A stretch of DNA of 64,000 bases from Spirochaetales bacterium. Lineage in GTDB: Bacteria > Spirochaetota > Spirochaetia > Sphaerochaetales > Sphaerochaetaceae. Numbering within the stretch: the first letter of the stretch is position 1; every line of letters starts with the position of its first letter. A model generated the notes under the pieces. The model was not told the DNA's origin and did not search any database. It worked only from the letters and a program-made list of their open reading frames with translations. Below, piece by piece: positions 6,325 through 49,423 of the stretch. Position numbers and translations under genes: made by a program. Location of the stretch: NCBI GenBank assembly GCA_017614375.1, contig JAGABZ010000006.1, positions 124,001 through 188,000 of the forward strand, in the 5' to 3' direction.

Positions 6325-6857
6325 TTTTTCTCCAACTGTTCTGGGAGTTTTTCCGGTCCGGGCTTCTGGCGGTGGGCGGAGGACTGGCAACCCTGCCTTT
6401 CCTCTATCAGATGTGCACGACCCATCCGGACTGGTTCACATCGGCCACCCTGGCCGACATGATCGCAATCAGCGAGTCGACCCCCGGGCCGATCGGAATC
6501 AACATGGCAACCTACGCCGGATTCTCCGTCGCCGGACTGGCAGGGGGTCTGCTGGCGACATTCGCGTTGGTTCTTCCGTCGCTGATCATCATTCTGATTG
6601 TCGCCAGGGTCTACACGAAGTTCAGGCAAAGCGCCCTGGTGAATGACGTGTTCACCTGCCTGCGACCGGTTGTCACCGGCGTCATCGCCTGCGTGCTTGT
6701 GAATCTGTCCCTGAGTTCGATGTACCCCGGCGGGGCGGTTCAATGGTACGGTATCGGAGTGTTTGCCTTCTGTACGGCCCTGGCCTTCACATTCAAAAGG
6801 CTCCACCCCATATTCATCATTCTCATCGGGGCTGCGGCCGGGGTTTTCCTGTTGTAG
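6321..6857 (+). CDS. chrA: ChrA-family transporter, second half (short-chain type)
   Basis: A 178-residue partner of the preceding protein, with its own CHR signature (AVGGGLATLPFLYQM, then SESTPGPIGINMATYAG) and about five helices. The GTG start at 6321 overlaps the upstream stop. The two halves differ clearly in sequence, as is usual for such pairs, so this is an old split or duplication and not a frameshift. The stop lies one base from the stop of the convergent lipoprotein gene, with no terminator visible between them. Confidence 0.88.
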   Translation: MIFLQLFWEFFRSGLLAVGGGLATLPFLYQMCTTHPDWFTSATLADMIAISESTPGPIGINMATYAGFSVAGLAGGLLATFALVLPSLIIILIVARVYTKFRQSALVNDVFTCLRPVVTGVIACVLVNLSLSSMYPGGAVQWYGIGVFAFCTALAFTFKRLHPIFIILIGAAAGVFLL

Positions 6858-6858
6858 C

Positions 6859-7392
6859 TCAGAGTTCTCCCGTAAGCAGGACCTTTCGGGCTGATTCCAG
6901 ACAGATATCACGGCCTATGAGCGTTCTTGCCAGGGCCTTTGCCTGGTCGGCCATCCCCAGCATGAGGTACGCCTCCAGAGCGCTTTGGCCGAAACTTTCA
7001 CACCACGGGTCCGCCTCAAGCCCCTCCAGACTTACCGCCAGGACTTCGGAATACATCTCCCGCATAGTGAAAAAGCGGATTCTGAGCTTTATGAAGGACA
7101 GCGTATCCGGCCAGTCCCGCTGGCCCTGAAGGGCGGCCTCCTCGGCCGCATCCCAGTCCTCTGCCATCGCCAGGCATACGGCCAGGTTGTACTGAAGTCT
7201 GCTGCTGGAAATCCGCGTCAGGGCATCGGCGCAGACATCGGCGGCCGCCCTGTAATCTCCGGCGTCGACATAGGTCGAGCACAAAAGCAGGGCGGCGTTC
7301 TCGATTTCCCCCTGAGGGTCGGCGGCTGTGGCACAGGAGACCGTCAGGAGAATCGAGAGACAGAGGATGCAGAGAACCGGGGCGCGCTTCAT
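6859..7392 (-). CDS. Lipoprotein with TPR-like helices
   Basis: A 177-residue protein with a signal sequence that ends in a lipobox-like LTVSC (Cys near residue 20), so it is probably lipid-anchored in a membrane. The mature part is made of paired helices rich in Ala and Leu (YRAAADVCADALTR, WDAAEEAAL, ADQAKALARTL), which matches degenerate tetratricopeptide repeats used for protein contacts. The start overlaps the stop of the upp-like gene (TGATG), so they share a transcript. No enzymatic motif is seen. Confidence 0.75.
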   Translation of the reverse strand: MKRAPVLCILCLSILLTVSCATAADPQGEIENAALLLCSTYVDAGDYRAAADVCADALTRISSSRLQYNLAVCLAMAEDWDAAEEAALQGQRDWPDTLSFIKLRIRFFTMREMYSEVLAVSLEGLEADPWCESFGQSALEAYLMLGMADQAKALARTLIGRDICLESARKVLLTGEL

Positions 7393-8465
7393 CACCTGCC
7401 CAGAACGGTTTCCTCGATTTTCTTCACCTGGGCACGGTAGAGGTTGTTGATGTTCGTGCCGTAGTCGGCAATCAGCTGGATCATGTTGCGCGGATTGTCG
7501 GGCAGGTCGACTCCGTTGAGTCTGTCGCCGGCGTCCCCCAGTCCGGGGAGGATGTATGCCGCTTCGTTGAGAATCGGGTCCATCCACAGGGTGTGGACTT
7601 CGCAGTTCGGTATGGCGCGGACGATTCTCAGGGCTCCCTTGAGGGCGCTTATGACGTTGATGAACTTCACCGAGCGGGCCTTGATGCCGATGCTTTCCAG
7701 ATGCTTGACGATGGTGACCAGCGAGCCGCCGGTGGCGTTCATCGGGTCGGCGAAGATCCAGTTCTTGTCCTGAAGGTCCTCGACCTTGAAGAATGAGCGG
7801 TCCAGATCGAGCACGTAGTCCATGTTCTTTTCCTTCTTGGACTCGTCCCTCTTGATCTTGAACAGGGCGAACGGCGGGACTTCACCGGAGGAGCTGTACT
7901 CCTGGATTTCCTTGCTGATGATCATCGAGGGAAGCAGGGCTCCGCGGAGCATGACGCAGAGCACGCTGTCCTGGACGATCGAGTCGACTTCCGGAATCTT
8001 GTGTACGGCATAGTTGCGGCAGGGGTTGGTAACCGGGGTCGGGGTGATTATGCTCCGCTTGCGGGGCATGTCCAGGGCCGCGTCGGTAAAGACATGGGCG
8101 AACAGCAGTTCGTACGCCCTCTGCACATAGTAGAGGAACTCCTCGTGTCCGGTTTTCGGGTCACGGAGCTTGGCAATCAGCCTGGAAGCCTGACCGTGGA
8201 GTTCACGCGGGGTCTCGAAGGAGTAGACGTGGATGGCGTTTTCCCGTTCGACCACGCTCTGAAGGTAATCGCCGATGTCACCGGCGCTCCTGACCAGTTC
8301 GTCCTGGGCCTCTTTCAGCTCGGCTGTGTTTTTTGCCTCTTCGATCCTCCGGCAGGCATCAAGCGAAGTATCATAAAGCCTGTCTGCTTTTTCGATGGCG
8401 ATGCGGTCCCTGTCGAGCAGGTATCCGTCCAGGTCCTGTGCGTGAAGAGTGATTTTGTTGCCCAT
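7392..8465 (-). CDS. upp: Uracil phosphoribosyltransferase-like protein with long N-terminal extension
   Basis: The C-terminal 200 or so residues match uracil phosphoribosyltransferase, which makes UMP from uracil and PRPP. The PRPP loop reads DPMNATGGS, and the uracil-recognition end reads GLGDAGDRLNG. The protein is 357 residues against about 208 for the usual enzyme. The extra 140 residues at the N-terminus are charged and helical (AIEKADRLYDTSLDACRR and so on) and carry no motif I know. The ATG at 8465 follows a perfect GGAGG. It is the first gene of a two-gene unit with the TPR lipoprotein. The activity is likely; the role of the extension is unknown. Confidence 0.85.
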   Translation of the reverse strand: MGNKITLHAQDLDGYLLDRDRIAIEKADRLYDTSLDACRRIEEAKNTAELKEAQDELVRSAGDIGDYLQSVVERENAIHVYSFETPRELHGQASRLIAKLRDPKTGHEEFLYYVQRAYELLFAHVFTDAALDMPRKRSIITPTPVTNPCRNYAVHKIPEVDSIVQDSVLCVMLRGALLPSMIISKEIQEYSSSGEVPPFALFKIKRDESKKEKNMDYVLDLDRSFFKVEDLQDKNWIFADPMNATGGSLVTIVKHLESIGIKARSVKFINVISALKGALRIVRAIPNCEVHTLWMDPILNEAAYILPGLGDAGDRLNGVDLPDNPRNMIQLIADYGTNINNLYRAQVKKIEETVLGR

Positions 8466-8503
8466 GTTTCCTCCGGAAACCTGCGGTTGCAGGCCCGCGG
8501 AAC

Positions 8504-8532
8504 ATGATAATGCATCCAAACCCGATTTACAA
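8504..8532 (-). promoter_or_regulatory. Promoter of upp-like operon
   Basis: On the minus strand TTGTAA (8532-8527), a 17-bp spacer and TATCAT (8509-8504). The short leader contains a small hairpin (CCTGC AACC GCAGG) before the ribosome site. Confidence 0.5.
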
Positions 8533-8598
8533 TCAGGTCTTGCCCCGGATGACGGGCGCCTTGCCGGCAACAACATGCCGTCCGAAGGAGGTTTTGCT

Positions 8599-8627
8599 TT
8601 GCAATACCGGCGGGTTTGTGCTAGAAA
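8599..8627 (+). promoter_or_regulatory. Promoter of the RDD-protein gene
   Basis: TTGCAA (8599-8604), a 17-bp spacer and TAGAAA (8622-8627), preceded by TGC, which gives an extended -10. Confidence 0.5.
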
Positions 8628-8665
8628 TAGAGTGTTGAATCTGCAACCGGGGGAGATTGCTGCCG

Positions 8666-9430
8666 ATGACTTTCGATGTACAGAGGGCGGGCATTTGGAA
8701 ACGCATCAGTGCGTGGATGTTCGACCGCATTCTTCTGTCGATTCTTGCTGTCGGCATGATGTGGCTTCTGAGCCTGGTCACCGGTTATGACAGCATAGGC
8801 AACAGATACTCCGATGGGCTGGTTTCCTACGAGAAGGCCTACAACATGAGTTTCGCCGTCACCAACGATGAATACCAGCAGATGTCCGACGCCGACAGGC
8901 AGAACTGGGACGCGGCGTATCAGGCCTTGATTTCCGATACCGAGGTGATGGCAGCCTATTCGACATACTTCCGCCTGACAATCATGAACATCTCCCTGAG
9001 CATCTTCATCGCCTATCTGGCCCTGGAGTTCCTCGTCCCCGTTCTGGCCTTCGGACACGGACGGACACTGGGAAAGAGGGTCTTCGGCCTGGCAGTGATG
9101 CGCACCGAGGGTGTCAGGATAAGCGGACCGGTGTTCTTCGTCAGGACGATTCTGGGCAAGTACACCCTCGAAACGATGGTTCCGGTCTTCATCATCCTGA
9201 TGATCTACTTCAACCAGCTCGGAATCATCGGTCTGGTGGTTCTGGGGGCATACGCCGTATTGCAGATCATCCTGCTGTTCGCCACCGCCAACCACACCCC
9301 GGTGCATGACCTGCTGTCCGACACCATCGTAGTCGACTACGCCAGCCAGAAGATTTACAACAGCCGTGAGGAGATGATCGCGGACATCAACGCGGATGCA
9401 AAGGAGAGCGCGGCACGCGACCCGTATTGA
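8666..9430 (+). CDS. RDD-family membrane protein
   Basis: A 254-residue protein. The RDD domain begins with the Arg and Asp of RISAWMFDRILLSI in the first helix and contains the second signature GRTLGKRVFGLAV. Between the first two helices is a hydrophilic loop of about 70 residues rich in Tyr, Asp and Gln, which probably faces the periplasm; two or three further helices follow. RDD proteins are widespread, and a few have been linked to Na+/H+ exchange, but most have no known role. The ATG at 8666 is used because it follows GGGGGAG. Confidence 0.82.
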   Translation: MTFDVQRAGIWKRISAWMFDRILLSILAVGMMWLLSLVTGYDSIGNRYSDGLVSYEKAYNMSFAVTNDEYQQMSDADRQNWDAAYQALISDTEVMAAYSTYFRLTIMNISLSIFIAYLALEFLVPVLAFGHGRTLGKRVFGLAVMRTEGVRISGPVFFVRTILGKYTLETMVPVFIILMIYFNQLGIIGLVVLGAYAVLQIILLFATANHTPVHDLLSDTIVVDYASQKIYNSREEMIADINADAKESAARDPY

Positions 9431-9473
9431 GCAAACAGCGCCTTGAGCGTAACACCGATAAAAGGAAGAGCAA

Positions 9474-10574
9474 ATGATTGTTGATCTACAGAATCTGACA
9501 AAGGTTTTCCCCAGCAGGAACAAGAAGGAAAAGGAAATGGTCACCGCCGTTTCCGACTTCACCTTTACCATCCCGGACGGCAAACTCGTAGGCCTCCTCG
9601 GGCCCTCCGGCTGCGGAAAGAGCACCACACTGTACATGATCTGCGGCCTGCAGAAGCCCTCCTCGGGAAAAATCTTCTTCGGGGACAACGACGTGACACA
9701 GCTTCCGCCGGAGAGCAGGGGAGTAGGACTCGTATTCCAGAACTACGCCCTGTATCCCCATATGACGGTCAAGCAGAACATCATGTTCCCCCTGCAGAAC
9801 CTCAAGGGCGCCGACAAGCTGGACAAGGACGAGATGCTCAAGCGCACCGTCGAAGTTGCCAGAATCGTCCAGATCGACGACCTGCTGGAGCGCAAGCCCA
9901 ATGAGCTTTCCGGCGGTCAGCAGCAGCGGGTCGCCATCGCCCGGGCCCTGGTCAAGATGCCGCGGGTTCTGCTTCTGGACGAGCCCCTGTCGAACCTCGA
10001 CGCCAGGCTCAGACTCCAGACCCGTGAGGAAATCCGCCGCATCCAGCGCGAGACCGGAATCACCACCGTTTTCGTCACCCACGACCAGGAAGAGGCGATG
10101 AGCATCTCCGACATGATCGTCGTGATGAAGAAGGGTGTCGTACAGCAGACCGGACACCCGCAGGACGTGTACAACAGCCCGGAAAACCTCTTCGTCGCCA
10201 AGTTCCTCGGCACGCCGCCGATCAACGTCTTTGACGCCACGGTCCGCTCCGGAAAGGTTTACATCGGTGACGAGGCCGTCATCGACGTCCCGGACGTACC
10301 CGACCAGGAAGTCATAGTCGGTATCAGGCCCGAGGGCTTCATCGTCCGCCCCGAGGGCAGGTTCCACTGCGCCCTCAACGGGGTGGAGGTCATGGGCAGG
10401 GACGTGAGTCTGGTCATGAATCATCCGGCGATGAACGTCCCGGTAATCCGCGCCATCATAGACGCCGACGTCACCGTCGACCCGGAGGCAACCGAGGTCG
10501 GATTCGACATCAAGCGCAACAAGATCTTCCTCTTTGAGAAGGAGACCGAGGCGCGCATATTCTTTGAGGTATAG
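9474..10574 (+). CDS. Sugar ABC importer ATPase (MsmK/UgpC type)
   Basis: A 366-residue ATPase of the MalK/UgpC/MsmK group. It has Walker A (GPSGCGKST), the Q-loop FQNYALYPH, the signature LSGGQQQRVAIARAL, Walker B with DEPLSNLDARLR, the H-loop THDQEEAMS, and a C-terminal TOBE-type regulatory region from about residue 245. The first residues before Walker A include a lysine-rich insert (SRNKKEKEM). It has a good AAGGAAG ribosome site. It is followed after one base by the first permease and heads a six-gene unit. One such ATPase can serve several transporters. Confidence 0.92.
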   Translation: MIVDLQNLTKVFPSRNKKEKEMVTAVSDFTFTIPDGKLVGLLGPSGCGKSTTLYMICGLQKPSSGKIFFGDNDVTQLPPESRGVGLVFQNYALYPHMTVKQNIMFPLQNLKGADKLDKDEMLKRTVEVARIVQIDDLLERKPNELSGGQQQRVAIARALVKMPRVLLLDEPLSNLDARLRLQTREEIRRIQRETGITTVFVTHDQEEAMSISDMIVVMKKGVVQQTGHPQDVYNSPENLFVAKFLGTPPINVFDATVRSGKVYIGDEAVIDVPDVPDQEVIVGIRPEGFIVRPEGRFHCALNGVEVMGRDVSLVMNHPAMNVPVIRAIIDADVTVDPEATEVGFDIKRNKIFLFEKETEARIFFEV

Positions 10575-10575
10575 C

Positions 10576-11538
10576 ATGGGCGGCAAGAACACAATGGTGG
10601 AAAGCAGACGCCCGTGGATGGCATGGGTCTATCTGGCCCCGGCCATCCTGCTTCTGCTCGTATTTACGGTCTGGCCGATCATCAACACCTTCAGGATGGC
10701 CTTTCTCGTAGGCTACCGCGGACTTGAGGCTGTCCAGGGCAAGACCTTCCCGTTCGGCTTCGGCAACTTCACCAAGGTCATCCAGTTCCAGGACTTCCTC
10801 AACTGCCTGCGCAACACGACTCTGCTTTGCGTGATCACCGTTCCGCTGTCGACCTTTCTGGCTCTGCTGATTTCGGTTTGCCTCAATTCGATCAAAACGC
10901 TCCAGAAAGGCCTACAGACGATCTTCTTCCTTCCGTACGTGACCAACTCCATCGCCATCGGCATGGTTTTCGCGGCGATGTTCAACATCGTCGGCAGCGC
11001 CCACGGAACTTCAAACCAGATCATCATCACCGCCGGAATCGTAAACAACATCATCACCTTTTTCGGCGGTGAGCCGGTCAATTGGATCAACTCAGGCTCG
11101 ACCTATCTGGCCAACATGACGGTCATGGTGATCTACATCGTGTGGAACGCCCTTCCGTTCAAAATCCTGATCCTGTTGGGCGGACTGCAGAGCGTGAACA
11201 AGCAGTACTACGACGCGGCCAGGGTTGACGGGACTTCCAGAAGGAGAATCTTCACCCGCATCACAGTGCCCCTGCTTTCCCCGATGATCGCCTACGTCGT
11301 CATCACCGGATTCATCGGAGGTTTCAAGGAATACACCAGCATAGTAGGTGTGTTCGGTGAAAAGATGGGACCGGCGAACGACCAGGGCAGACTGAATACC
11401 ATGGTCGGATTCATCTACGATGCGCTGGAGAACAACCATCAGGGCAGGGCAAGCGCCGCCGCTCTGATCCTGTTCGGCATCATCCTCGTCGTGACCTTGA
11501 TCAACCTCCAGGTCAGCAAGAGACGGGTCCATTACTAG
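10576..11538 (+). CDS. Sugar ABC importer permease 1 (MalF/UgpA type)
   Basis: A 320-residue permease with six hydrophobic helices and the coupling motif near the C-terminus (YYDAARVDGTSRRRIFTRITVPLL). The ATG at 10576 begins one base after the ATPase stop. It pairs with the next gene to form the channel for an oligosaccharide or related solute. The spacer between helices 3 and 4 (residues about 140-175) is longer than in MalF-like short forms and contains GSAHGTSNQ. Confidence 0.9.
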   Translation: MGGKNTMVESRRPWMAWVYLAPAILLLLVFTVWPIINTFRMAFLVGYRGLEAVQGKTFPFGFGNFTKVIQFQDFLNCLRNTTLLCVITVPLSTFLALLISVCLNSIKTLQKGLQTIFFLPYVTNSIAIGMVFAAMFNIVGSAHGTSNQIIITAGIVNNIITFFGGEPVNWINSGSTYLANMTVMVIYIVWNALPFKILILLGGLQSVNKQYYDAARVDGTSRRRIFTRITVPLLSPMIAYVVITGFIGGFKEYTSIVGVFGEKMGPANDQGRLNTMVGFIYDALENNHQGRASAAALILFGIILVVTLINLQVSKRRVHY

Positions 11539-21742: not shown

Positions 21743-22558
21743 ATGAAAAAACGGACTGTAGCAGCCGTTGTTGCCGCATTGATTCTGGTCTGCCTGCTTG
21801 TGACGGTCTCATGCTCAAAAAAGCCGGCCGAAGCAAAGGAGCCGTCGTGGCGTATGGAAAGGATGACACGTACCGACGAGGCGGGAGCGGAGCAGCCCGA
21901 CGGGTTCCGCTACACATTCAGCAGCCTCAGCGGTGTCTGGAAGCCGGCGGCAGAGGAGCCTGAAGAAGGAGAGCAACAGACGGAGCCGAAGGGAATCCCG
22001 TTTGTCTTCGATATCGTCTTTGACTCGACAGCGGTGTACGAGAACATGGGATTCTGGTTCGTAATTAGCGGGGTCGGGGATACTGTCATGCCTGCGGAGG
22101 GGGATTTCCTCCTGCTGTATCTGTCCGACGGCATGGGCTCGGAGTTCTTCTTCCCGGTCAACGTTCAACTGGTGACGAATGACGGATTCGCGGTGTTCGT
22201 CTACGCCAGCGATATAGACTACTCCAGCATGTACTGGTATTTCGCCGAAGTCATCGAGGGAACCGTTACGTACCGCCTGTACGATGAGGACAACAACTAT
22301 TACGAACTGGGGACCATCACGACGGTCGCCGACGGCCAGACCGAGGTAATCTCCGGTACAGGTCTGCTGGGGTTCTTTGACCTGATCATGAACGATGTGC
22401 TCGGACCGTACACAAAGCTTATGGACCAGGGCAGATACCAGGAGGCCCTGGATGCGTTCAGACAGGACTTCGAACCTCTGCTGACCGACACCCTTGAATA
22501 TGAAGCCGGACTCCAGTGTATCGTGGACCCCTGCGAGGAAGCCCTTAAGACCGAGTGA
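21743..22558 (+). CDS. Lipoprotein of unknown function
   Basis: A 271-residue protein with a hydrophobic signal ending in the lipobox LVTVSC (Cys at about residue 24), so it is membrane-anchored. The mature part begins with a charged linker (PEEGEQQTEPKG), then a beta-rich domain with many Tyr, Phe and Asp residues, and ends in a helical segment (YQEALDAFRQDF). No catalytic motif is seen. The stop overlaps the first DHH gene by one base (TGATG), and it shares that operon. The ribosome site is GAGGTTGAAG. Confidence 0.6.
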   Translation: MKKRTVAAVVAALILVCLLVTVSCSKKPAEAKEPSWRMERMTRTDEAGAEQPDGFRYTFSSLSGVWKPAAEEPEEGEQQTEPKGIPFVFDIVFDSTAVYENMGFWFVISGVGDTVMPAEGDFLLLYLSDGMGSEFFFPVNVQLVTNDGFAVFVYASDIDYSSMYWYFAEVIEGTVTYRLYDEDNNYYELGTITTVADGQTEVISGTGLLGFFDLIMNDVLGPYTKLMDQGRYQEALDAFRQDFEPLLTDTLEYEAGLQCIVDPCEEALKTE

Positions 22559-23532
22559 TGCAGATGACGGAAAACCTCAAATACCGGGCGGCTTTGGACG
22601 CCATCCGGGAATCAGAGACGATTATCATCCACCGGCACAGCCGGCCGGACGGGGATGCCATAGGCAGCCAGGTCGGACTGCGTGCCCTGATCAGGGCGAA
22701 CTTCCCGAAGAAAAAGGTCCTGATAACCGGAGACAGCGCGGGGCGGTACTCTTTCCTGGTTCCGGAAGGGATGGACAACGTTGCGGATGATGCTTTCGCA
22801 GGGGCCCTGTGCATAATACTCGACACCTCATCGCAGGCCATGATCAGCGACGGGCGTTGGCGCACGGCGGGGCGGACCCTGAGATTCGACCATCACCTCT
22901 ACTGCGGGCAGATTGCCGGTCAGGAGGTCATAGATTCAACCTTTGAAAGCTGCTGCGGTCTGATTGCCGATTTCGCGGAGACCTGCGCCCTCTCGGTGGA
23001 CCGTGAATGCGCCCAGGCCCTGTTTTGCGGGATGGTCACCGACTCGGGACGCTTCAGATATGAGAACACCAACGCCAGAACCCTGGCTCTGGCCGGCAGA
23101 CTGCTCGAAACCGGGGTGGATGCGCAATCTTTGTACCACAGGCTGTACACGGACAGCATCGAGCACCTCCGGCTGAAGGCCGAATTCTGTCTGGCCGTTC
23201 AGAGGCGGGGAAACGTGGGTTTCATCTACACCGACCGCCGGAGGCTGGCCGAGTTGGGAACCGACGCCTATACCGCCGCCCGGGGCATGGTCGGTGTCAT
23301 GGGCGATCTCAAGGGGATTGATGTGTGGGTGAGTTTTGCCGAGGATGAGGACGGGGTGCTCTGTGAACTTCGCTCAAGCGGACCGTCGGTCAACCCGATA
23401 GCGGTCAAGTACGGCGGGGGCGGACATGCCAAGGCAAGCGGAGCCATGGTAAAGGACCGCTCTGAAGCGATGGCGATGCTGGACGATCTGACCGAACTGG
23501 CCGGCTCCTGGGCAGAAGGGGAAAAGGAATGA
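22558..23532 (+). CDS. DHH-family phosphoesterase, NrnA-like (copy 1)
   Basis: A 324-residue protein with the DHH-DHHA1 arrangement. Motif I is H-x-RPDGDA (D31, D33), motif II LDT, motif III FDHH, and the C-terminal substrate loop is GGGGHAKASGA. All metal ligands of the family appear intact. NrnA enzymes degrade very short RNA (nanoRNA), and some hydrolyse pAp or cyclic dinucleotide products such as pApA. It is followed with a four-base overlap by a second, diverged copy. The start is weakly supported, with ATG at 22558 or 22564 both possible. Confidence 0.86.
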   Translation: MQMTENLKYRAALDAIRESETIIIHRHSRPDGDAIGSQVGLRALIRANFPKKKVLITGDSAGRYSFLVPEGMDNVADDAFAGALCIILDTSSQAMISDGRWRTAGRTLRFDHHLYCGQIAGQEVIDSTFESCCGLIADFAETCALSVDRECAQALFCGMVTDSGRFRYENTNARTLALAGRLLETGVDAQSLYHRLYTDSIEHLRLKAEFCLAVQRRGNVGFIYTDRRRLAELGTDAYTAARGMVGVMGDLKGIDVWVSFAEDEDGVLCELRSSGPSVNPIAVKYGGGGHAKASGAMVKDRSEAMAMLDDLTELAGSWAEGEKE

Positions 23533-24512
23533 ACAACATGCAGATCAAGCAGGCCGTTCTGGACCTGATCAGGGAATACGACAGCATCATAATCTCCCGG
23601 CACATCAGACCGGACGGGGACGCCTGCGGTTCGGCTCTCGGACTGAAGAGAATCATAGAACTGTCGTTTCCGGACAAGACGGTACGTTACATCGCCGACG
23701 ATGAATCCGAGCTCTACAGCTTTCTCGGAAGCGGCGATCAGCAGGTGAGTGAGGAGGTCTACAGACGGTCGCTGTTGATTGTCGTCGACACGGCCACCGA
23801 TGACCGGATTTCCAATTCTATGGCTAGATTTGCCGGGAAAATTCTCAAAATAGACCATCATATCGATAATGAGCCCTACGGAGACCTCTGCTGGATCGAG
23901 GACGGACGCTCGTCCAACTGCGAGCTTCTGGCCGACTTTCTGACGAGTTTTCCCGGGGTTCTGAAGACCGACACCTACGGGGCAACCTGCCTCTATGCGG
24001 GGATGGTCACCGACTCGGGCCGTTTCATGTTCGAGGGGACCTGCGGTGACACCCTGCGCCTGGCCGGAGCGCTGCTGGATTACGGGGTGGATATCCAGAC
24101 CCTGTACGCGCAGCTGTACATGGACGATTATGCCTTTCACAAGTTCAAGGCCCATGTTCTGCAGACGATGAACATCACCCCTTCGGGAGTCGCTTGGACT
24201 TATGTCGACAACGATACAATCAAGCAGTTCGGCCTGAGCCTGAAACAGGCCAGCGAGTGTGCCTCCTTTATGGAGAAGATCCGCGGATCGCTGATCTGGC
24301 TGGCCTTCATCGACAACCCCGACGGAACCATCCGGGTCCGCCTGCGCTCCCGGTTCGTGACGGTCAATTCCCTGGCAAACAAGTACGGCGGCGGCGGACA
24401 CGCCAACGCAAGCGGGGCCACGGTTGCAGACCGGGCGCAGATGCAGGCTCTGATTGACGACGCTGACGCGCTGCTGGCTGACTACAAGGCCAACCACAGG
24501 GGGTGGCTGTGA
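23529..24512 (+). CDS. DHH-family phosphoesterase, NrnA-like (copy 2)
   Basis: A 327-residue paralogue of the previous protein. It has the full motif set (RPDGDACGS with D29 and D31, VVDT, IDHH, and GGGGHANASGA), so both copies should be active. The copies differ over most of their length (for instance YRYIADDESELYSFLG-type text against GDSAGRYSFLVPEG), which points to division of labour and not recent duplication. The ATGA overlap with copy 1 and the GTGA overlap with surE tie the nucleotide phosphatases into one unit. Confidence 0.87.
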   Translation: MNNMQIKQAVLDLIREYDSIIISRHIRPDGDACGSALGLKRIIELSFPDKTVRYIADDESELYSFLGSGDQQVSEEVYRRSLLIVVDTATDDRISNSMARFAGKILKIDHHIDNEPYGDLCWIEDGRSSNCELLADFLTSFPGVLKTDTYGATCLYAGMVTDSGRFMFEGTCGDTLRLAGALLDYGVDIQTLYAQLYMDDYAFHKFKAHVLQTMNITPSGVAWTYVDNDTIKQFGLSLKQASECASFMEKIRGSLIWLAFIDNPDGTIRVRLRSRFVTVNSLANKYGGGGHANASGATVADRAQMQALIDDADALLADYKANHRGWL

Positions 24513-25237: not shown

Positions 25238-25657
25238 ATGGCAGAACAGGTCTATTTCCACACGGTACAGTACTATGAGACGGACAGGATGGGGGTGACC
25301 CACCATTCGAACTACATCCGCTGGATGGAGGAGGCCCGCGTAGCCCTGCTGGGGGCAACGGGGGCGGACTATCGCGAGATGGAAGAGCAGGGGGTGCTCT
25401 CACCGGTGGTCAAGGTGGAGTGCGGTTTCAAAAAGCCGACAACCTTCGGAGACCGGGTGGGTATCCGTCTGAAAATCGCCGCCTTTACCGGAATCCGGCT
25501 GACCCTGGGCTATGAGATGTTCCGCGAGTCGGACGGTGAGACGGTATGCACCGCCACAAGCGAGCACTGTTTCATGGATCCGTCGGGAAAGCTGCTCAAC
25601 CTCCGCCGCAGCCATCCTGAGCTTTTCGAGGTCCTGAAGGCCGTTGAAAGTGTGTAG
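25238..25657 (+). CDS. Acyl-CoA thioesterase, YbgC/4-hydroxybenzoyl-CoA type
   Basis: A 139-residue hot-dog-fold protein. The N-terminal motif TVQYYETDRMGVTHHSNYIRW holds the catalytic Asp (D16) and the family Tyr/His pattern. It hydrolyses acyl-CoA or acyl-ACP thioesters; the natural substrate is unknown. It is the last gene of the lipoprotein-nrnA-nrnA-surE unit, three bases after surE, and has no clear terminator behind it. Confidence 0.87.
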   Translation: MAEQVYFHTVQYYETDRMGVTHHSNYIRWMEEARVALLGATGADYREMEEQGVLSPVVKVECGFKKPTTFGDRVGIRLKIAAFTGIRLTLGYEMFRESDGETVCTATSEHCFMDPSGKLLNLRRSHPELFEVLKAVESV

Positions 25658-25691: not shown

Positions 25692-25720
25692 TTTACAAGA
25701 CGGGACGTTCGTGCTATATT
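25692..25720 (+). promoter_or_regulatory. Promoter of the four-gene exported-protein operon
   Basis: TTTACA (25692-25697), a 17-bp spacer and TATATT (25715-25720), preceded by TGC for an extended -10. Transcription should start near 25727, which leaves a leader of about 38 nt. Confidence 0.6.
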
Positions 25721-25764
25721 GTATTCTGTATCCGTGCATGCGGGGAAATTGCGGGTGCGCTGTG

Positions 25765-26298
25765 ATGAAGAAAGTACTGATTATTCTGCTTTTCTTTGTA
25801 TCCCTTCCCCTTCTGGCCGTCGACACGAGTACGACGAATTTCAGCGTGCACCTTTCCGTCACGACAGTCAAACACTTCACCATGTCGATCAAGCCGTTTG
25901 ACGTGAACTACAACACGATTCTCGACGGTGAGACTGTTGAGGTGGACGGAGTGAACAATACCCACCGTTCCCAGATCTGCAGGGTTGACATCGCGACAAA
26001 CGAGAAGAATTACTACATCACCTTTTCCGGCGTGGCTCTCAACTGCACCGAGGGGTATTCCCAGGGGCAGAAGTTCCCGTACCGGCTGGTTCTCACCAAG
26101 GGAACCCGAGAGTTGACCCTGGACATCCTGGCAACCGATCTCGTTCTGGGGACAAAGGCTATCGATTTCCCGGTTGAGGTTGCCTCGCCGGGTATCGTCA
26201 CATCGAGGATTTTCGTGTATGCCGTGCTGACGGACTTCAATGATATGCTTCCGGGCACCTATCAGGCCACGATTCAGGTGGAGGAGAAGACGCTGTGA
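25765..26298 (+). CDS. Exported beta-rich protein, first gene of unrecognised four-gene operon
   Basis: A 177-residue protein with a signal peptide (MKKVLIILLFFVSLPLLA). The mature part is short alternating hydrophobic strands with one Cys pair (C74-like QICRV and NCTEG), and it ends LPGTYQATIQVEEKTL. That G-x-Y-x-x-T-I ending resembles the last strand of pilin-type or spore-coat-U-type beta sandwiches and recurs in the genes downstream. I do not recognise the family. The start chosen is the ATG at the signal peptide; an upstream in-frame ATG at 25738 is possible. It overlaps the next gene by four bases. Confidence 0.6.
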   Translation: MKKVLIILLFFVSLPLLAVDTSTTNFSVHLSVTTVKHFTMSIKPFDVNYNTILDGETVEVDGVNNTHRSQICRVDIATNEKNYYITFSGVALNCTEGYSQGQKFPYRLVLTKGTRELTLDILATDLVLGTKAIDFPVEVASPGIVTSRIFVYAVLTDFNDMLPGTYQATIQVEEKTL

Positions 26299-26972
26299 AA
26301 AGAACCGTATTTATCGCGCTGCTCCTCCTGACGGCCCTGTCGTTTGCCCTGGCCGATACTTCAGAACTTACAATCAAGGGCTACTATGCCCCGGCGGCGG
26401 AGAAAACCTGCAGCCTGAAAGTCTGGCAGCCGACCCAGGGCGCCCCGACCGATTCGGACCGCATCTACCACTCCGGTTCGGTGACCCTCGACGGTTCGGG
26501 GCTCGACATCTCACAGTCCAACACGACCACCACCCTGAACAACGAAACGGTGAAATATGTGGAGTTCCCTCTGTTTACGTGGGAGGTTACCAGCAACTTC
26601 AACACGACCTATACCCTGTCCTTTAAGATGTCTCCGTTCCAGGCCTTCAAGGGAGGCAGTTACTACATCCCGAGCCACAGAATCCTGATGACAGTCGGCA
26701 ACGCGACCGTTTCGGAGGATTTCTACAACCCCAGCTCCGAGGACGGAACCACCCAGGGGACCTACCCCTATGTGGGATTCTATGTCAGCGGCAGCACCGT
26801 CAGGACCACGAATTTCAGCTATGACAACACGACCAATCCTCTCAACGGTTCGGAGAACAACCCTGCCAGCGTGACCGGAACGTGCAAACTCTGGATGTTC
26901 GCCATAGACGAGGAAAGCGGCACGACCTTTGACTATTCGAGCAACGTGACAGTGGAGTTGACCGTACAATGA
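26295..26972 (+). CDS. Exported beta-rich protein, second gene of the four-gene operon
   Basis: A 225-residue protein with a signal peptide ending SFALADT. The mature part is rich in Thr, Ser, Asn and Tyr, with many predicted strands and no lysine-rich or catalytic motif. It contains two Cys residues, in KTCSLKVW and TGTCKLWMF. The end FDYSSNVTVELTVQ is a looser version of the shared C-terminal strand. The GTG start overlaps the previous stop and follows GAGGAG. Low charge and high Thr/Asn content suggest a structural surface or periplasmic protein. Confidence 0.6.
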   Translation: MKRTVFIALLLLTALSFALADTSELTIKGYYAPAAEKTCSLKVWQPTQGAPTDSDRIYHSGSVTLDGSGLDISQSNTTTTLNNETVKYVEFPLFTWEVTSNFNTTYTLSFKMSPFQAFKGGSYYIPSHRILMTVGNATVSEDFYNPSSEDGTTQGTYPYVGFYVSGSTVRTTNFSYDNTTNPLNGSENNPASVTGTCKLWMFAIDEESGTTFDYSSNVTVELTVQ

Positions 26973-27658
26973 AGAGAATCCTGATTGTTTCCATCCTGCT
27001 TCTGTCCTGTCTGTTTTCCCTCGTTGCCGAAGACCTCAAGGAAAACTACAACATTTCCCAGACAATCCAGGGCTTTGTCGAGCTGAACAACGTGGCCAGC
27101 TTTGAGCTTTACGTCGGATCCTTCCAGTATAATTCCGGAAACGGAATCAACCTCGACATCAACGACTCGAACAACAACCTCAGGTATCTCATTGCCCCGA
27201 CCCAGACCCCGATGAGCGAGGCGGGACTGCTTGTCTCAACCGTCACGTTGGCGGCGTCCCAGCCCGTATACAGGCTGAGAATCACCCACAACAGGCTCAG
27301 CTGGAAAAACCCCATGACAAATGTCTGGTCATATCTGGATTACGAACTTGCATTCAGCTACAAGGTCACATCCCTGGTCAACGGTTCCAGTGTCACCAAC
27401 ACAGTCACCAAATTCTGTAAGAGCCGCGAACTTGACCCCAACACAACCTACGACAGCACGACAACGAGTACGGATTATGCCATCATTGTTTCCCTGACCG
27501 AGGGCGGTAACGGCGGCAACGTGACTATCAACGATGCCGGTCTGCACTTCCGCCTGAGAACCGCCCCGACTGTCTCCACTCAGTATGTCAACAACAACAA
27601 CCAGACGAAGACAGGGCATTACGATTCGACCATATATATCGATGTGGAGAGCCTGTGA
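26969..27658 (+). CDS. Exported beta-rich protein, third gene of the four-gene operon
   Basis: A 229-residue protein with a signal peptide (cut near SLVAED). It has an Asn-rich mature region (NDSNNNLRYL, NNNNQTKTG) and the ending GHYDSTIYIDVESL, close to that of the first and fourth proteins. It is coupled by ATGA to the gene before and by TGATG to the one after. No homologue is recognised from sequence. The Asn-rich runs and absence of catalytic motifs fit an assembled subunit better than an enzyme. Confidence 0.6.
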   Translation: MKRILIVSILLLSCLFSLVAEDLKENYNISQTIQGFVELNNVASFELYVGSFQYNSGNGINLDINDSNNNLRYLIAPTQTPMSEAGLLVSTVTLAASQPVYRLRITHNRLSWKNPMTNVWSYLDYELAFSYKVTSLVNGSSVTNTVTKFCKSRELDPNTTYDSTTTSTDYAIIVSLTEGGNGGNVTINDAGLHFRLRTAPTVSTQYVNNNNQTKTGHYDSTIYIDVESL

Positions 27659-28986
27659 TGAAAAAATCCGCAGTCCTGATTCTGATACTTCTTGTTCTGT
27701 CCCCTCTGTTCGCGATAACCGACGCGGAAAAAACAGAGCGCGTCTGGTTCATGGATAACGCACAGGACAAGTTCAAGAGTGTCGACCTTGAGAAGGCCAT
27801 ATACCTGCCCAAGTACAACTCCAGGGACTGGTCAGGCACTGCTGATGACTATGGTGATCCGGAGAACGGAACCTATGGCACGGTCAATGTTCTGGGGCAT
27901 ATCGGCTGTGCATTCCTCGATCACCATCTGCGGTTTACCGTCACCACCGACGGACGGTTCGTCTCCCAGTCCGATCCGACAAAGTACCGTGAGTTCTATA
28001 TCGCCCTGATGCCGAGAATCCGTTACGGCGAGAAGGACTACAACTGCATCATGGACTATTCGACCACACCCGCCCAACAGGTGACGGTCTCCGACCGAGT
28101 CCCCAATACGAAGTTCACAGGTTCGGCCACTGTCGTCACTCCGAGCTGGACCAACAGCAGTCCGTCCGTGGTTATCGACGGAAACGGCACGACAAAGAAC
28201 CCGACACGTTTCTACTGTGACGTGCTTATCATCATGGATGAGCTGACCGCCGCCGACCAGCAGCACCTGGCCCAGAAGGACGACTACATCGCCACTGTAA
28301 CTATCAGCTGGACCTGCACCGATCCGGACTGCGACTACTCGGACGCCAACGTCTCCGGTTTCCAGGGGCACCATGCCTGCCACCAGGGCTCGTACACCTT
28401 CGTCGTACGTGGATACATCAACAAGCAACCTACTGCAACCAAAATCAGCGCCTTCGTCGTCCCGACGTTTTCGGCCACCAACCTCAACATCATGGACATA
28501 GTGGCCAACAAAAACGGGGAGGAGAAAATCGCGGATTTCGACCTGTATGCATCTTCAAACAAGACGGACTGGGTAAGCCTGTTGTATGTATTTCCCTCCT
28601 CAAGCAACAGTTACTCAACCAACGGCTCTCATTTCTTCCTGACCAAGAAAACCGACGCCAATGTGAAGATTCCGTATCAGATAGTAATAAAGAATCTGGA
28701 TACAGGTCAGGTGAACCAGACATTTGACGGCACGATGAAGTACGTCCAGAGCAACACGACGTCACGCCTGCAGTTGGCGGACTATCGAAGTATGATCAAC
28801 GACCGAAGCGCTGTTCTCTGGTACTCAATCCTGTACAAGGGCGAGGTATATATCAACATCCAGATGGAGGATCCGGAGCATGCCGGACAGTACATCCCGA
28901 TGACCGAGGCCGAACTGAACAGCGACCCGAACTACGCCGGTCTGTATACTTCAACGATTTACTACCACGTCGTCTCGTCCAATTAA
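27658..28986 (+). CDS. Large exported beta-rich protein, fourth gene of the four-gene operon
   Basis: A 442-residue protein with a signal peptide (cut near SPLFAITDA). The middle has a small Cys/His cluster (WTCTDPDCDYSD, then GHHACHQGS) that could bind metal or form disulphides. The C-terminal third ends GLYTSTIYYHVVSSN, the same closing motif as proteins one and three. Twice the length of its neighbours, it could be a tip, anchor or scaffold for them; this is inference. A good terminator follows. Confidence 0.6.
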   Translation: MKKSAVLILILLVLSPLFAITDAEKTERVWFMDNAQDKFKSVDLEKAIYLPKYNSRDWSGTADDYGDPENGTYGTVNVLGHIGCAFLDHHLRFTVTTDGRFVSQSDPTKYREFYIALMPRIRYGEKDYNCIMDYSTTPAQQVTVSDRVPNTKFTGSATVVTPSWTNSSPSVVIDGNGTTKNPTRFYCDVLIIMDELTAADQQHLAQKDDYIATVTISWTCTDPDCDYSDANVSGFQGHHACHQGSYTFVVRGYINKQPTATKISAFVVPTFSATNLNIMDIVANKNGEEKIADFDLYASSNKTDWVSLLYVFPSSSNSYSTNGSHFFLTKKTDANVKIPYQIVIKNLDTGQVNQTFDGTMKYVQSNTTSRLQLADYRSMINDRSAVLWYSILYKGEVYINIQMEDPEHAGQYIPMTEAELNSDPNYAGLYTSTIYYHVVSSN

Positions 28987-28993
28987 CCGTCTT

Positions 28994-29024
28994 GCGGAGG
29001 CAGTCAGCCTCCGCTATTATTTTA
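28994..29024 (+). terminator. Rho-independent terminator after exported-protein operon
   Basis: An 8-bp stem GCGGAGGC/GCCTCCGC with a 5-nt loop, followed by a run TATTATTTTA. Confidence 0.85.
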
Positions 29025-48013: not shown

Positions 48014-49423
48014 GTGAGCGTCAGTGAAAACCTTATTTCCGATTTGCTTAAAAGGTCATTCGAAGACACATGGTTCGAATTCAAGGCAAACTGGTTTGAC
48101 CCGGATGGAATCGGTGAGTACATCTCTGCTCTGTCAAACGCGGCAGTAATCGCGGGGGCGGATTTCGGTTATCTGATCTGGGGGGTCGATGACGTGACCC
48201 ATGAAGCAACAGGTACCGACATGGACTTCACCCGGAATGTCAGAAACGAACCTCTGGAGCATTATCTTACCCGGAACCTTTATCCCGCCTTGAATTTCCG
48301 CTTTGAGAGTGTTGACTACAGGGGAAAGAGGCTTGTGGTCCTTACCGTCCCCGCTGCCCGTAGCCTGCCGACTTCGTACAAAAACATCAGGTACACCAGA
48401 ATAGGGGCCAGCAAGGAAAGCCTGCTTCGGTATCCCGAGCGGGAGGCGGAGCTCTGGAACGCGCTCAATCATGTCAATGATACGATTGAGAATACGGAAT
48501 CGGCCTATCAGGACCTGACATTCGGCAGCCTGGTCAACTACTATTCCACAAAAGGGATAACTCTTGATCCGGGTACATTCAGGGAGAATCTGGGATTGCT
48601 GACCAGAAACGGCAGGTATAATATCCTGGCACAGTTGCTGTCGGATAATTCCCGCGTATGTGTGCGGATTGCCGTGTTTGCCGGAAAAGAGAAATCTGAC
48701 CCGTTATTCGCCGTCAAGGAATGCGGTTTCATGTCTCTGCTTCTGAGTCTGGACAAGGTCCTGGACTACGGCGACACGTTCAATATCCCTCAGGCCGACG
48801 AGCGCAACAGAAAAGCCGAGAGAAAAGAGGTCATGCTGTTTGATTCTGCTTCCTACCGGGAGGCAATCATCAACGCCTTTGTCCATAACGACTGGATGGG
48901 GCAGAATGCCCCCATGATTACCTTCTTTTCCGACCGTATCGAAATCATATCAAACGGCGCACTGTCGCCGAAGCTGACGATGGACGACTTCTACAGAGGA
49001 AAGAGCAAACCGGTGAACAAGGCCCTCTCTGATATATTCCTCCAGCTGCATCTCAGTGAGCGTTCCGGCAGGGGAGTGCCGACCATTGTCAAACGGTACG
49101 GGAAAAGAGCCTTCTCCTTCCTTGAAAACTACATTATGGTCACGATTCCGTTCAACTTCCTCCATGCGGTGGACTATCGGCCGGGGGCAGACCAGGTCGG
49201 GGAGGAATCCCCGGAGTATTGCAGGAGGAGGATTACTCCGAACCAAAACGAAATCATGAGACAGATCCGAAGTAATCCGGGTATTACCATCGGAGAGATA
49301 GCCTCAGCTGTCGGACTGAGCCCGACTGCAGTTTTCAACAATCTGAATCGGCTTCAGGAATTCGGGCTGCTCGAGAGGGTCGGTTCCAGAAAGACAGGTT
49401 ACTGGCGCCTGTCAAAAGCTTGA
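48014..49423 (+). CDS. AlbA_2-domain (Schlafen-like) regulator with RecG-C-type ATPase domain and HTH
   Basis: A 469-residue protein. Residues 10-150 match the AlbA_2 domain (FEFKANWFDPDG, NAAVIAGADFGYLIWGVDD). Residues 270-385 match the divergent ATPase often labelled RecG C-terminal/HATPase_c_4 (REAIINAFVHNDW, SDRIEIISNG, SGRGVPTI). The last 70 residues form a winged helix (TIGEIASAVGLSPTAVFNNL). Such proteins are probably DNA-binding regulators, found near mobile or defence genes. The GTG at 48014, six bases after AAGGAGG, is preferred to an ATG at 47993. Lower G+C than its neighbours and AT-rich flanks suggest transfer. Confidence 0.85.
   Translation: MSVSENLISDLLKRSFEDTWFEFKANWFDPDGIGEYISALSNAAVIAGADFGYLIWGVDDVTHEATGTDMDFTRNVRNEPLEHYLTRNLYPALNFRFESVDYRGKRLVVLTVPAARSLPTSYKNIRYTRIGASKESLLRYPEREAELWNALNHVNDTIENTESAYQDLTFGSLVNYYSTKGITLDPGTFRENLGLLTRNGRYNILAQLLSDNSRVCVRIAVFAGKEKSDPLFAVKECGFMSLLLSLDKVLDYGDTFNIPQADERNRKAERKEVMLFDSASYREAIINAFVHNDWMGQNAPMITFFSDRIEIISNGALSPKLTMDDFYRGKSKPVNKALSDIFLQLHLSERSGRGVPTIVKRYGKRAFSFLENYIMVTIPFNFLHAVDYRPGADQVGEESPEYCRRRITPNQNEIMRQIRSNPGITIGEIASAVGLSPTAVFNNLNRLQEFGLLERVGSRKTGYWRLSKA

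Follow-up and report, generated by a model that had tools for sequence, protein, structure and literature searches.

Pili built by the chaperone-usher pathway have been described as classical systems (type 1, P and F1), alternative systems such as ECP and CFA/I, the latter with the components CfaA, CfaB, CfaC and CfaE, and archaic systems such as the Csu pilus of Acinetobacter, in which CsuC is the chaperone, CsuD the usher and CsuE the tip. Classical systems are encoded by single-locus operons and their ushers carry an ordinary signal peptide; SCPU (PF05229) is the pilin domain of the archaic systems. The stretch of DNA considered here, referred to as the window, comprises 64,000 nucleotides from a Spirochaetales bacterium of the Sphaerochaetaceae (assembly GCA_017614375.1, contig JAGABZ010000006.1, positions 124,001 to 188,000 of the forward strand) and harbors four coupled genes, g1 to g4, whose exported products had been proposed, from the letters alone (the original prediction), to form a pilin-like surface fibre or layer by an unknown route. 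In all likelihood, g1–g4 form an operon for the subunits of a chaperone-usher pilus of divergent type, whose chaperone and usher genes lie elsewhere in the genome. The pilin-like reading is supported by the models of g3 and g4 and by a gene order kept in many genomes; the claim of an unknown route no longer stands, as the same genome contains genes for a PapD-type chaperone and for a divergent usher.

The system resembles the archaic Csu pilus in combining a PapD-type chaperone, an usher, several small pilins and a probable two-domain tip, and CsuE is among the structural matches of g4; however, g1–g4 lack a match to SCPU, the subunit cassettes are unlinked from the chaperone and usher genes, and the usher has about 300 residues more and a membrane segment at its N-terminus. 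Archaic pilins carry invariant cysteines (PMC4654587); mature g1–g3 have no invariant cysteine, the number per protein being 0–4 and varying among homologues. With the alternative pili, the likeness lies in CfaE and CfaB as top Foldseek matches of g4 and in EcpB as a match of the chaperone, while four different subunits, split loci, an extended usher and the lack of sequence-level membership set the present system apart. By comparison with the classical pili, the usher profiles detect FimD and PapC, and the FimH pilin domain matches g4, but there is neither a single-locus operon nor, apparently, an ordinary usher signal peptide. Judged by modelled subunit fold, the alternative (CFA/I) pili appear closest, and by gene logic and spirochaete relatives the archaic (SCPU) pili are; the system is filed as a divergent chaperone-usher system and as a member of neither class.

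The last gene of the operon, g4 (27658–28986, + strand; 442 residues; ATG start, alternative GTG at 27655), encodes a protein modelled with two domains. Its AlphaFold2 model (predicted local distance difference test (pLDDT) 85.7, predicted template-modelling score 0.80, 18-sequence alignment) consists of two pilin-type immunoglobulin (Ig) sandwiches, and its ten best Foldseek matches in the PDB are all chaperone-usher pilins or tips (best E 2.4e-8), with CfaE/CfaB in first place and CfaB, Saf, CfaE with its chaperone, FimH and CupB6 among the top matches. Whole-chain template-modelling scores are low (about 0.2), which is read as the consequence of the two domains being arranged differently. 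The N-terminal Ig-like domain (residues 24–256; 27727–28425, + strand) may be the outward-facing or binding part; its residues 25–256 align with the 200–377 region of CfaE in VIA-align (Z 7.8, root-mean-square deviation 3.5, 139 aligned). The C-terminal pilin-type domain (residues 257–442; 28426–28983, + strand) would accept the donor strand of the next subunit, and its residues 261–442 align with CfaE (Z 7.6), CfaB (7.1), CsuE (6.8), the pilin domain of FimH (6.2) and EcpA (6.0). In the model, the first strand begins at residue 28, directly behind the signal peptide, leaving no donor extension. As modelled, g4 is very probably a two-domain tip subunit.

The model of g3 (26969–27658, + strand; 229 residues; pLDDT 81.3, 36-sequence alignment) has a sandwich spanning residues 37–229, preceded by a low-confidence coil at residues ~20–36. 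VIA-align finds, below the cannula proteins discussed further on, the pilin domains of CfaE, Caf1, CsuE, EcpA, PapG and FimG (Z ~5–5.8); most alignments begin at residue 36–38, and the aligned range of Caf1 begins at Caf1 residue 15. Pilin families missing from the VIA lists were not counted as evidence. The coil preceding the Caf1-aligned part, residues 21–36 (27029–27076, + strand), is proposed as the donor-strand extension, and the model of g3 fits a pilin-like sandwich behind an extended N-terminus, as in donor-strand pilins. Structure prediction, which the original prediction had recommended, gave pilin-like sandwiches for g3 and g4 and not a set of unrelated folds. The product of g1 (25765–26298, + strand; 177 residues; ATG start, alternative GTG at 25762) has a signal peptide at residues ~1–18, then an alternating-hydrophobic segment (TNFSVHLSV), and ends in the strand GTYQATIQV; by inspection, most g1 homologues, which are the first gene of each cassette, have such a segment behind the signal peptide. 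Alternating hydrophobics at the N-terminus recur in homologues of g2 (26295–26972, + strand; 225 residues), together with a conserved ..I.GYY.. behind the signal peptide. The mature part of g1 shows profile similarity to g2 as well as to g3 (probability 95% each), and in other genera a g2-type gene lies directly 3' of the usher gene.

Each of the four products begins, as judged from the sequence, with a signal peptide and has no evident lipobox. The C-termini quoted in the original prediction are exact; they are of the G-x-Y-x-x-T-I type, the weaker fourth version being that of g2 (...FDYSSNVTVELTVQ). G and Y of this motif are invariant in 18 g4 homologues; in 36 g3 homologues, Y is invariant and G is present in at least 90%. 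At the level of sequence, the motif exceeds chance. Two names returned by Pfam for window proteins, COX4_pro and UBL_AVO1, were rejected for scores far under the cut-offs, as was a phmmer match of g1 to designed PPR proteins in the PDB, a spurious match over 15 residues only.

The distribution of the cassette was followed in a family survey of 139 genomes from 22 genera. Single-sequence searches returned weak relatives of each gene, mostly adjacent to one another, with g1 matched in 5/139 genomes; a peptide-pattern search of GTDB contigs with g4 gave no match, and the spread of the cassette is visible by profiles only. The g4 profile (A1) matches 62/139 genomes and 11/22 genera at E<=1e-3; its weakest matches span the N-terminal region only, and a strong match is found in 50 genomes. 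The four-gene order is kept across loci, mostly with 4-base overlaps, in varying chromosomal surroundings. Two copies lie in tandem in L052 and L053, two are divergent in L054, and L057 has two, one of them partly read. As the cassette recurs in many genomes, among Sphaerochaeta and relatives, a gene order unique to this genome, which the original prediction had allowed for, is excluded. In L046, copies of a HAD-type hydrolase gene (75–788 and 6779–7492) flank a block with the cassette and two solo pilin-like genes; the block looks inserted with duplication of the neighbour gene. Sphaerochaeta-like genomes (L246, L248–L250, L253) have solo or arrayed pilin-like genes of ~180 residues, spaced apart, in place of the four-gene cassette.

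A search across the family with the Pfam Usher model gave no match over the cut-off, and an absence of ushers was considered; this was overturned when weak matches led to real ushers. These sub-threshold matches fall in open reading frames (ORFs) of 705–1,311 residues, mostly longer than 1,000, and two of these ORFs lie no more than ~4 kb from a g4 gene. Seven loci (L091, L092, L097, L098, L105, L108, L110) share the gene order chaperone, usher, g2, g3, g4 and more pilin-like genes, with a chaperone-like gene of ~245 residues and an usher-like gene of ~1,100–1,300 residues. PapD_N is matched by 11/11 chaperones in the chaperone profile (A5), and Pfam Usher (PF00577) at E<=1e-3 by 5/11 ushers in the usher profile (A6), one of them over the cut-off (34.2 vs 27.1 bits). 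A5 and A6 each match 105/139 genomes, 101 of them in common, and the usher lies directly downstream in 108/109 chaperone loci. The genome that harbors the window has exactly one chaperone (A5, E 2.7e-88) and one usher (A6, E 1.2e-182), adjacent on contig 10 (G000; L148): the chaperone at 10052–10798 (- strand) scores 28.8 bits for PapD_N against a Pfam cut-off of 23, and the usher at 6568–10008 (- strand; 1,146 residues) has no Pfam match. No subunit gene lies alongside this pair, and no NCBIfam model matched any chaperone-usher part tested.

A joint profile that includes this usher (A11) matches the plug and barrel of FimD (~600 residues, E 6.4e-5). When the profile is built from eight compact spirochaete ushers, the FimD match, again ~600 residues long, reaches E 8.6e-10, and PapC (3.5e-5) and the F1 capsule-anchoring protein (0.0025) are matched as well. 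These matches, and the PapD-type chaperone gene next to the usher gene in 108/109 chaperone loci, are regarded as settling that the usher-like genes are usher homologues. Among solved structures, EcpB is the sole significant relative of the chaperone (E 2.7e-4). In non-classical chaperones, Arg89 in strand F1 anchors the subunit C-terminus (PMC4654587); Arg112 of the present chaperone, in E-L-S-F-R-L (motif E-x-x-F-R), is invariant in 8/8 sequences, has an equivalent in 11/11 and aligns with the Arg of EcpB YYRIV, and is tentatively equated with the published Arg89, assuming an offset in numbering. Residue 89 of the EcpB chain (SEVIRFF) was rejected as the anchor: it seems to precede strand F, and the YYRIV Arg fits the paper better.

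Chaperone or usher is found in 47/50 genomes with a strong g4 match vs 62/89 others (Fisher p 5e-4, uncorrected for phylogeny), and both are present in 31/32 strong-g4 genomes that are at least 90% complete. The converse often fails, because many genomes with the pair (the g16 group among them, taken to be Sphaerochaeta) have arrayed or solo small pilin-like genes where the cassette would be. Two such solo genes lie on contig 13 of the present genome, at 48457–48975 (E 2.7e-23) and 144487–144996 (E 2.0e-10). In many genera (loci L094, L095, L153, L155–L157, L160–L165), the pair immediately adjoins apparent V-type ATPase genes, so labelled by recognition and not by a family model, and has no adjacent subunit gene.

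Relatives beyond the family are more compact. Among 395 genomes of the class, the usher profile matches 37 genomes of other families, mostly in ORFs of ~780–950 residues. The eight loci read (L254–L260, L262) are compact operons, generally in the order pilin, chaperone, usher, tip. They resemble the present system in that their chaperones score 125–207 bits and their ushers 75–141 bits against the Sphaerochaetales profiles and in that pilin and tip C-termini are similar; they differ in that all four components share one operon and in that the ushers mostly have 786–956 residues (a single one has 1,311) and carry a signal peptide of ordinary appearance, which in those read is soon followed by the usher domain, with no long linker directly behind it. 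The SCPU cut-off is passed by 4/4 subunits scanned from these operons, and no match to PF05229 was found in g1–g4 or in the members of profiles A1 and A2; the spore-coat-U kinship suggested in the original prediction is thus upheld indirectly, through other spirochaetes, but not for the four proteins of the window. Among named genomes, a chaperone scan with three peptide patterns found Sphaerochaeta halotolerans, Pleomorphochaeta, Ca. Aphodenecus, Ca. Ornithospirochaeta and uncultured Spirochaetales, and none outside the spirochaetes.

The Sphaerochaetales ushers carry an unusual N-terminal region. A hydropathy count finds a hydrophobic segment of at least 19 residues near the N-terminus in 78/79 non-redundant sequences; at least two membrane segments are predicted in 34/79, a single one in 44/79 and an odd count in 67/79, which fits a cytoplasmic N-terminus with the usher core outside. 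Between these segments and the usher N-terminal domain lies a Pro/Glu-rich stretch (median ~155 residues, 28% P+E; its boundary, drawn with a sequence pattern, is approximate, and a few outliers reflect failures of that pattern). As a hydrophobic helix and this stretch precede the core, the usher, judged from sequence, probably has an inner-membrane anchor and spans the periplasm. The segment could instead be an ordinary cleaved signal peptide followed by a soluble periplasmic extension, an unlikely but credible reading: the 44 single-segment ushers might be cleaved by the peptidase, and a crude A-x-A test did not discriminate between anchor and cleaved signal peptide, but multiple segments in 34/79, the prevalence of odd counts and a hydrophobic run longer than that of compact spirochaete ushers (median 21 vs 13.5 residues) argue for an anchor. 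In many single-helix ushers (L149, L151, L152, L155, L157, L162, L163, L165), a conserved TC closes the hydrophobic segment (e.g. FIWTCF, LFFHTC, LFFYTC), a possible lipidation site or disulphide.

In the proposed mechanism, g1–g4 would be exported by Sec, capped in the periplasm by the PapD-type chaperone through donor-strand capping and polymerised by donor-strand exchange at the outer-membrane usher. The contig-10 pair would serve g1–g4 and probably the two solo pilin-like genes on contig 13 as well. Since g4 lacks an N-terminal extension, it would be the first subunit out, as the tip, followed, by analogy with Csu, by g3, g2 and g1, which may act as shaft or adaptor pilins; a location at the cell surface and any adhesive role would follow from such an assembly. 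Across Sphaerochaeta-type spirochaetes, it is reasonably likely that one inner-membrane-anchored usher, spanning the periplasm by its Pro/Glu linker, builds alternative pili from unlinked, duplicable cassettes.

Several observations weigh against assigning g1–g4 to a chaperone-usher pilus. They have no meaningful match to Pfam-A and none to NCBIfam; in their own genome, cassette and usher are linked by co-occurrence and not by adjacency, and G118 (92% complete) has the cassette with no chaperone or usher detected. Structures were predicted for g3 and g4, so that the assignment of g1 and g2 draws on profiles and gene order, and the comparison of mature g2 with g3 is not significant (profile probability 3%). 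For g3, Foldseek gave no match below 1e-3 (best E 0.02), and archaeal CanA cannulae rank above the pilins in VIA-align with the maximum Z of 7.2, a range (Z <8) that can reflect merely a common arrangement. The modest Z values of g4 are outweighed because one functional class dominates its list and was found independently via the gene neighbourhood. The fibre itself, like the expression and interactions of g1–g4, is a prediction from genes and models.

A rival reading takes g1–g4 to be exported β-sandwich proteins, self-assembling or periplasmic and independent of the pair, such as carbohydrate-binding proteins or cannula/TasA-like donor-strand fibre proteins. The window has no chaperone or usher gene (a profile scan of its ORFs matches g1–g4 only), as the original prediction had noted for the surroundings of the operon, CanA and a Pyrobaculum pilus, the best matches of g3, are assembled without ushers, and G118 keeps the cassette with no detected pair. 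However, the absence holds for the window and not for the genome, in other genera the genes for related subunits immediately follow those for chaperone and usher, the best matches of g4 are chaperone-usher tips and pilins, and the pair accompanies the cassette in 47/50 genomes, so that independence from the pair seems very improbable. A fair minority of the likelihood goes to g1–g4 being chaperone-usher products that build not a rigid pilus but a coat without fibres, capsule-like or amorphous, of the kind made by the Caf1/F1 antigen or Saf; both Caf1 and Saf, themselves products of chaperone-usher systems, are among the structural matches, whereas a dedicated two-domain tip with three different further subunits resembles, though not decisively, tip-bearing pili.

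The operon is tightly organised, as originally claimed: read directly from the sequence, the g1/g2, g2/g3 and g3/g4 overlaps are 4, 4 and 1 (or 4) bases. The promoter and terminator named in the original prediction are found where it had placed them. A sigma-70-type promoter-like site (25692–25720, + strand) consists of TTTACA (25692–25697), a 17-nt spacer and TATATT (25715–25720); a predicted intrinsic terminator (28994–29024, + strand) has a perfect 8-bp stem, GCGGAGGC/GCCTCCGC, in a hairpin at 28994–29014, followed by the T-rich tail TATTATTTTA. Both sites were recovered by a scan. As chance alone would be expected to give ~2 sites like the promoter and ~3.5 like the terminator in this stretch, the argument for both is their position, not their score. 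Directly upstream of the cassette lies a 139-residue gene (25238–25657) for an apparent hotdog-type thioesterase (..ETDRMGVTHHSNY..), a homologue of which lies directly downstream of the cassette in L049 (11967–12386) and near it in L051, the side thus differing. At 22555–24512, the window has two tandem related ORFs of 325 and 327 residues, apparently DHH-type phosphoesterases (..RPDGDA..).

Two features look new: the separation of the subunit cassettes from the single pair of assembly genes, and the architecture of the ushers, with N-terminal membrane helices that look uncleaved and a Pro/Glu-rich linker of ~150 residues. To our knowledge, an envelope-bridging usher has not been described for the chaperone-usher pathway; no paper joining Sphaerochaeta with chaperone-usher pili was found either, which is weak evidence of novelty, as most of the subscription literature lay outside the search. 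An unannotated operon can now be related to a named machine, a spirochaete chaperone-usher pathway largely missed by standard family models. If the reading is correct, a textbook pathway for adhesion fibres would extend across this spirochaete lineage, with subunit genes that can part from the genes of their assembly pair and increase in number. This raises the question as to whether a physical link can exist between an outer-membrane usher and the inner membrane, and what purpose such a tie may serve.

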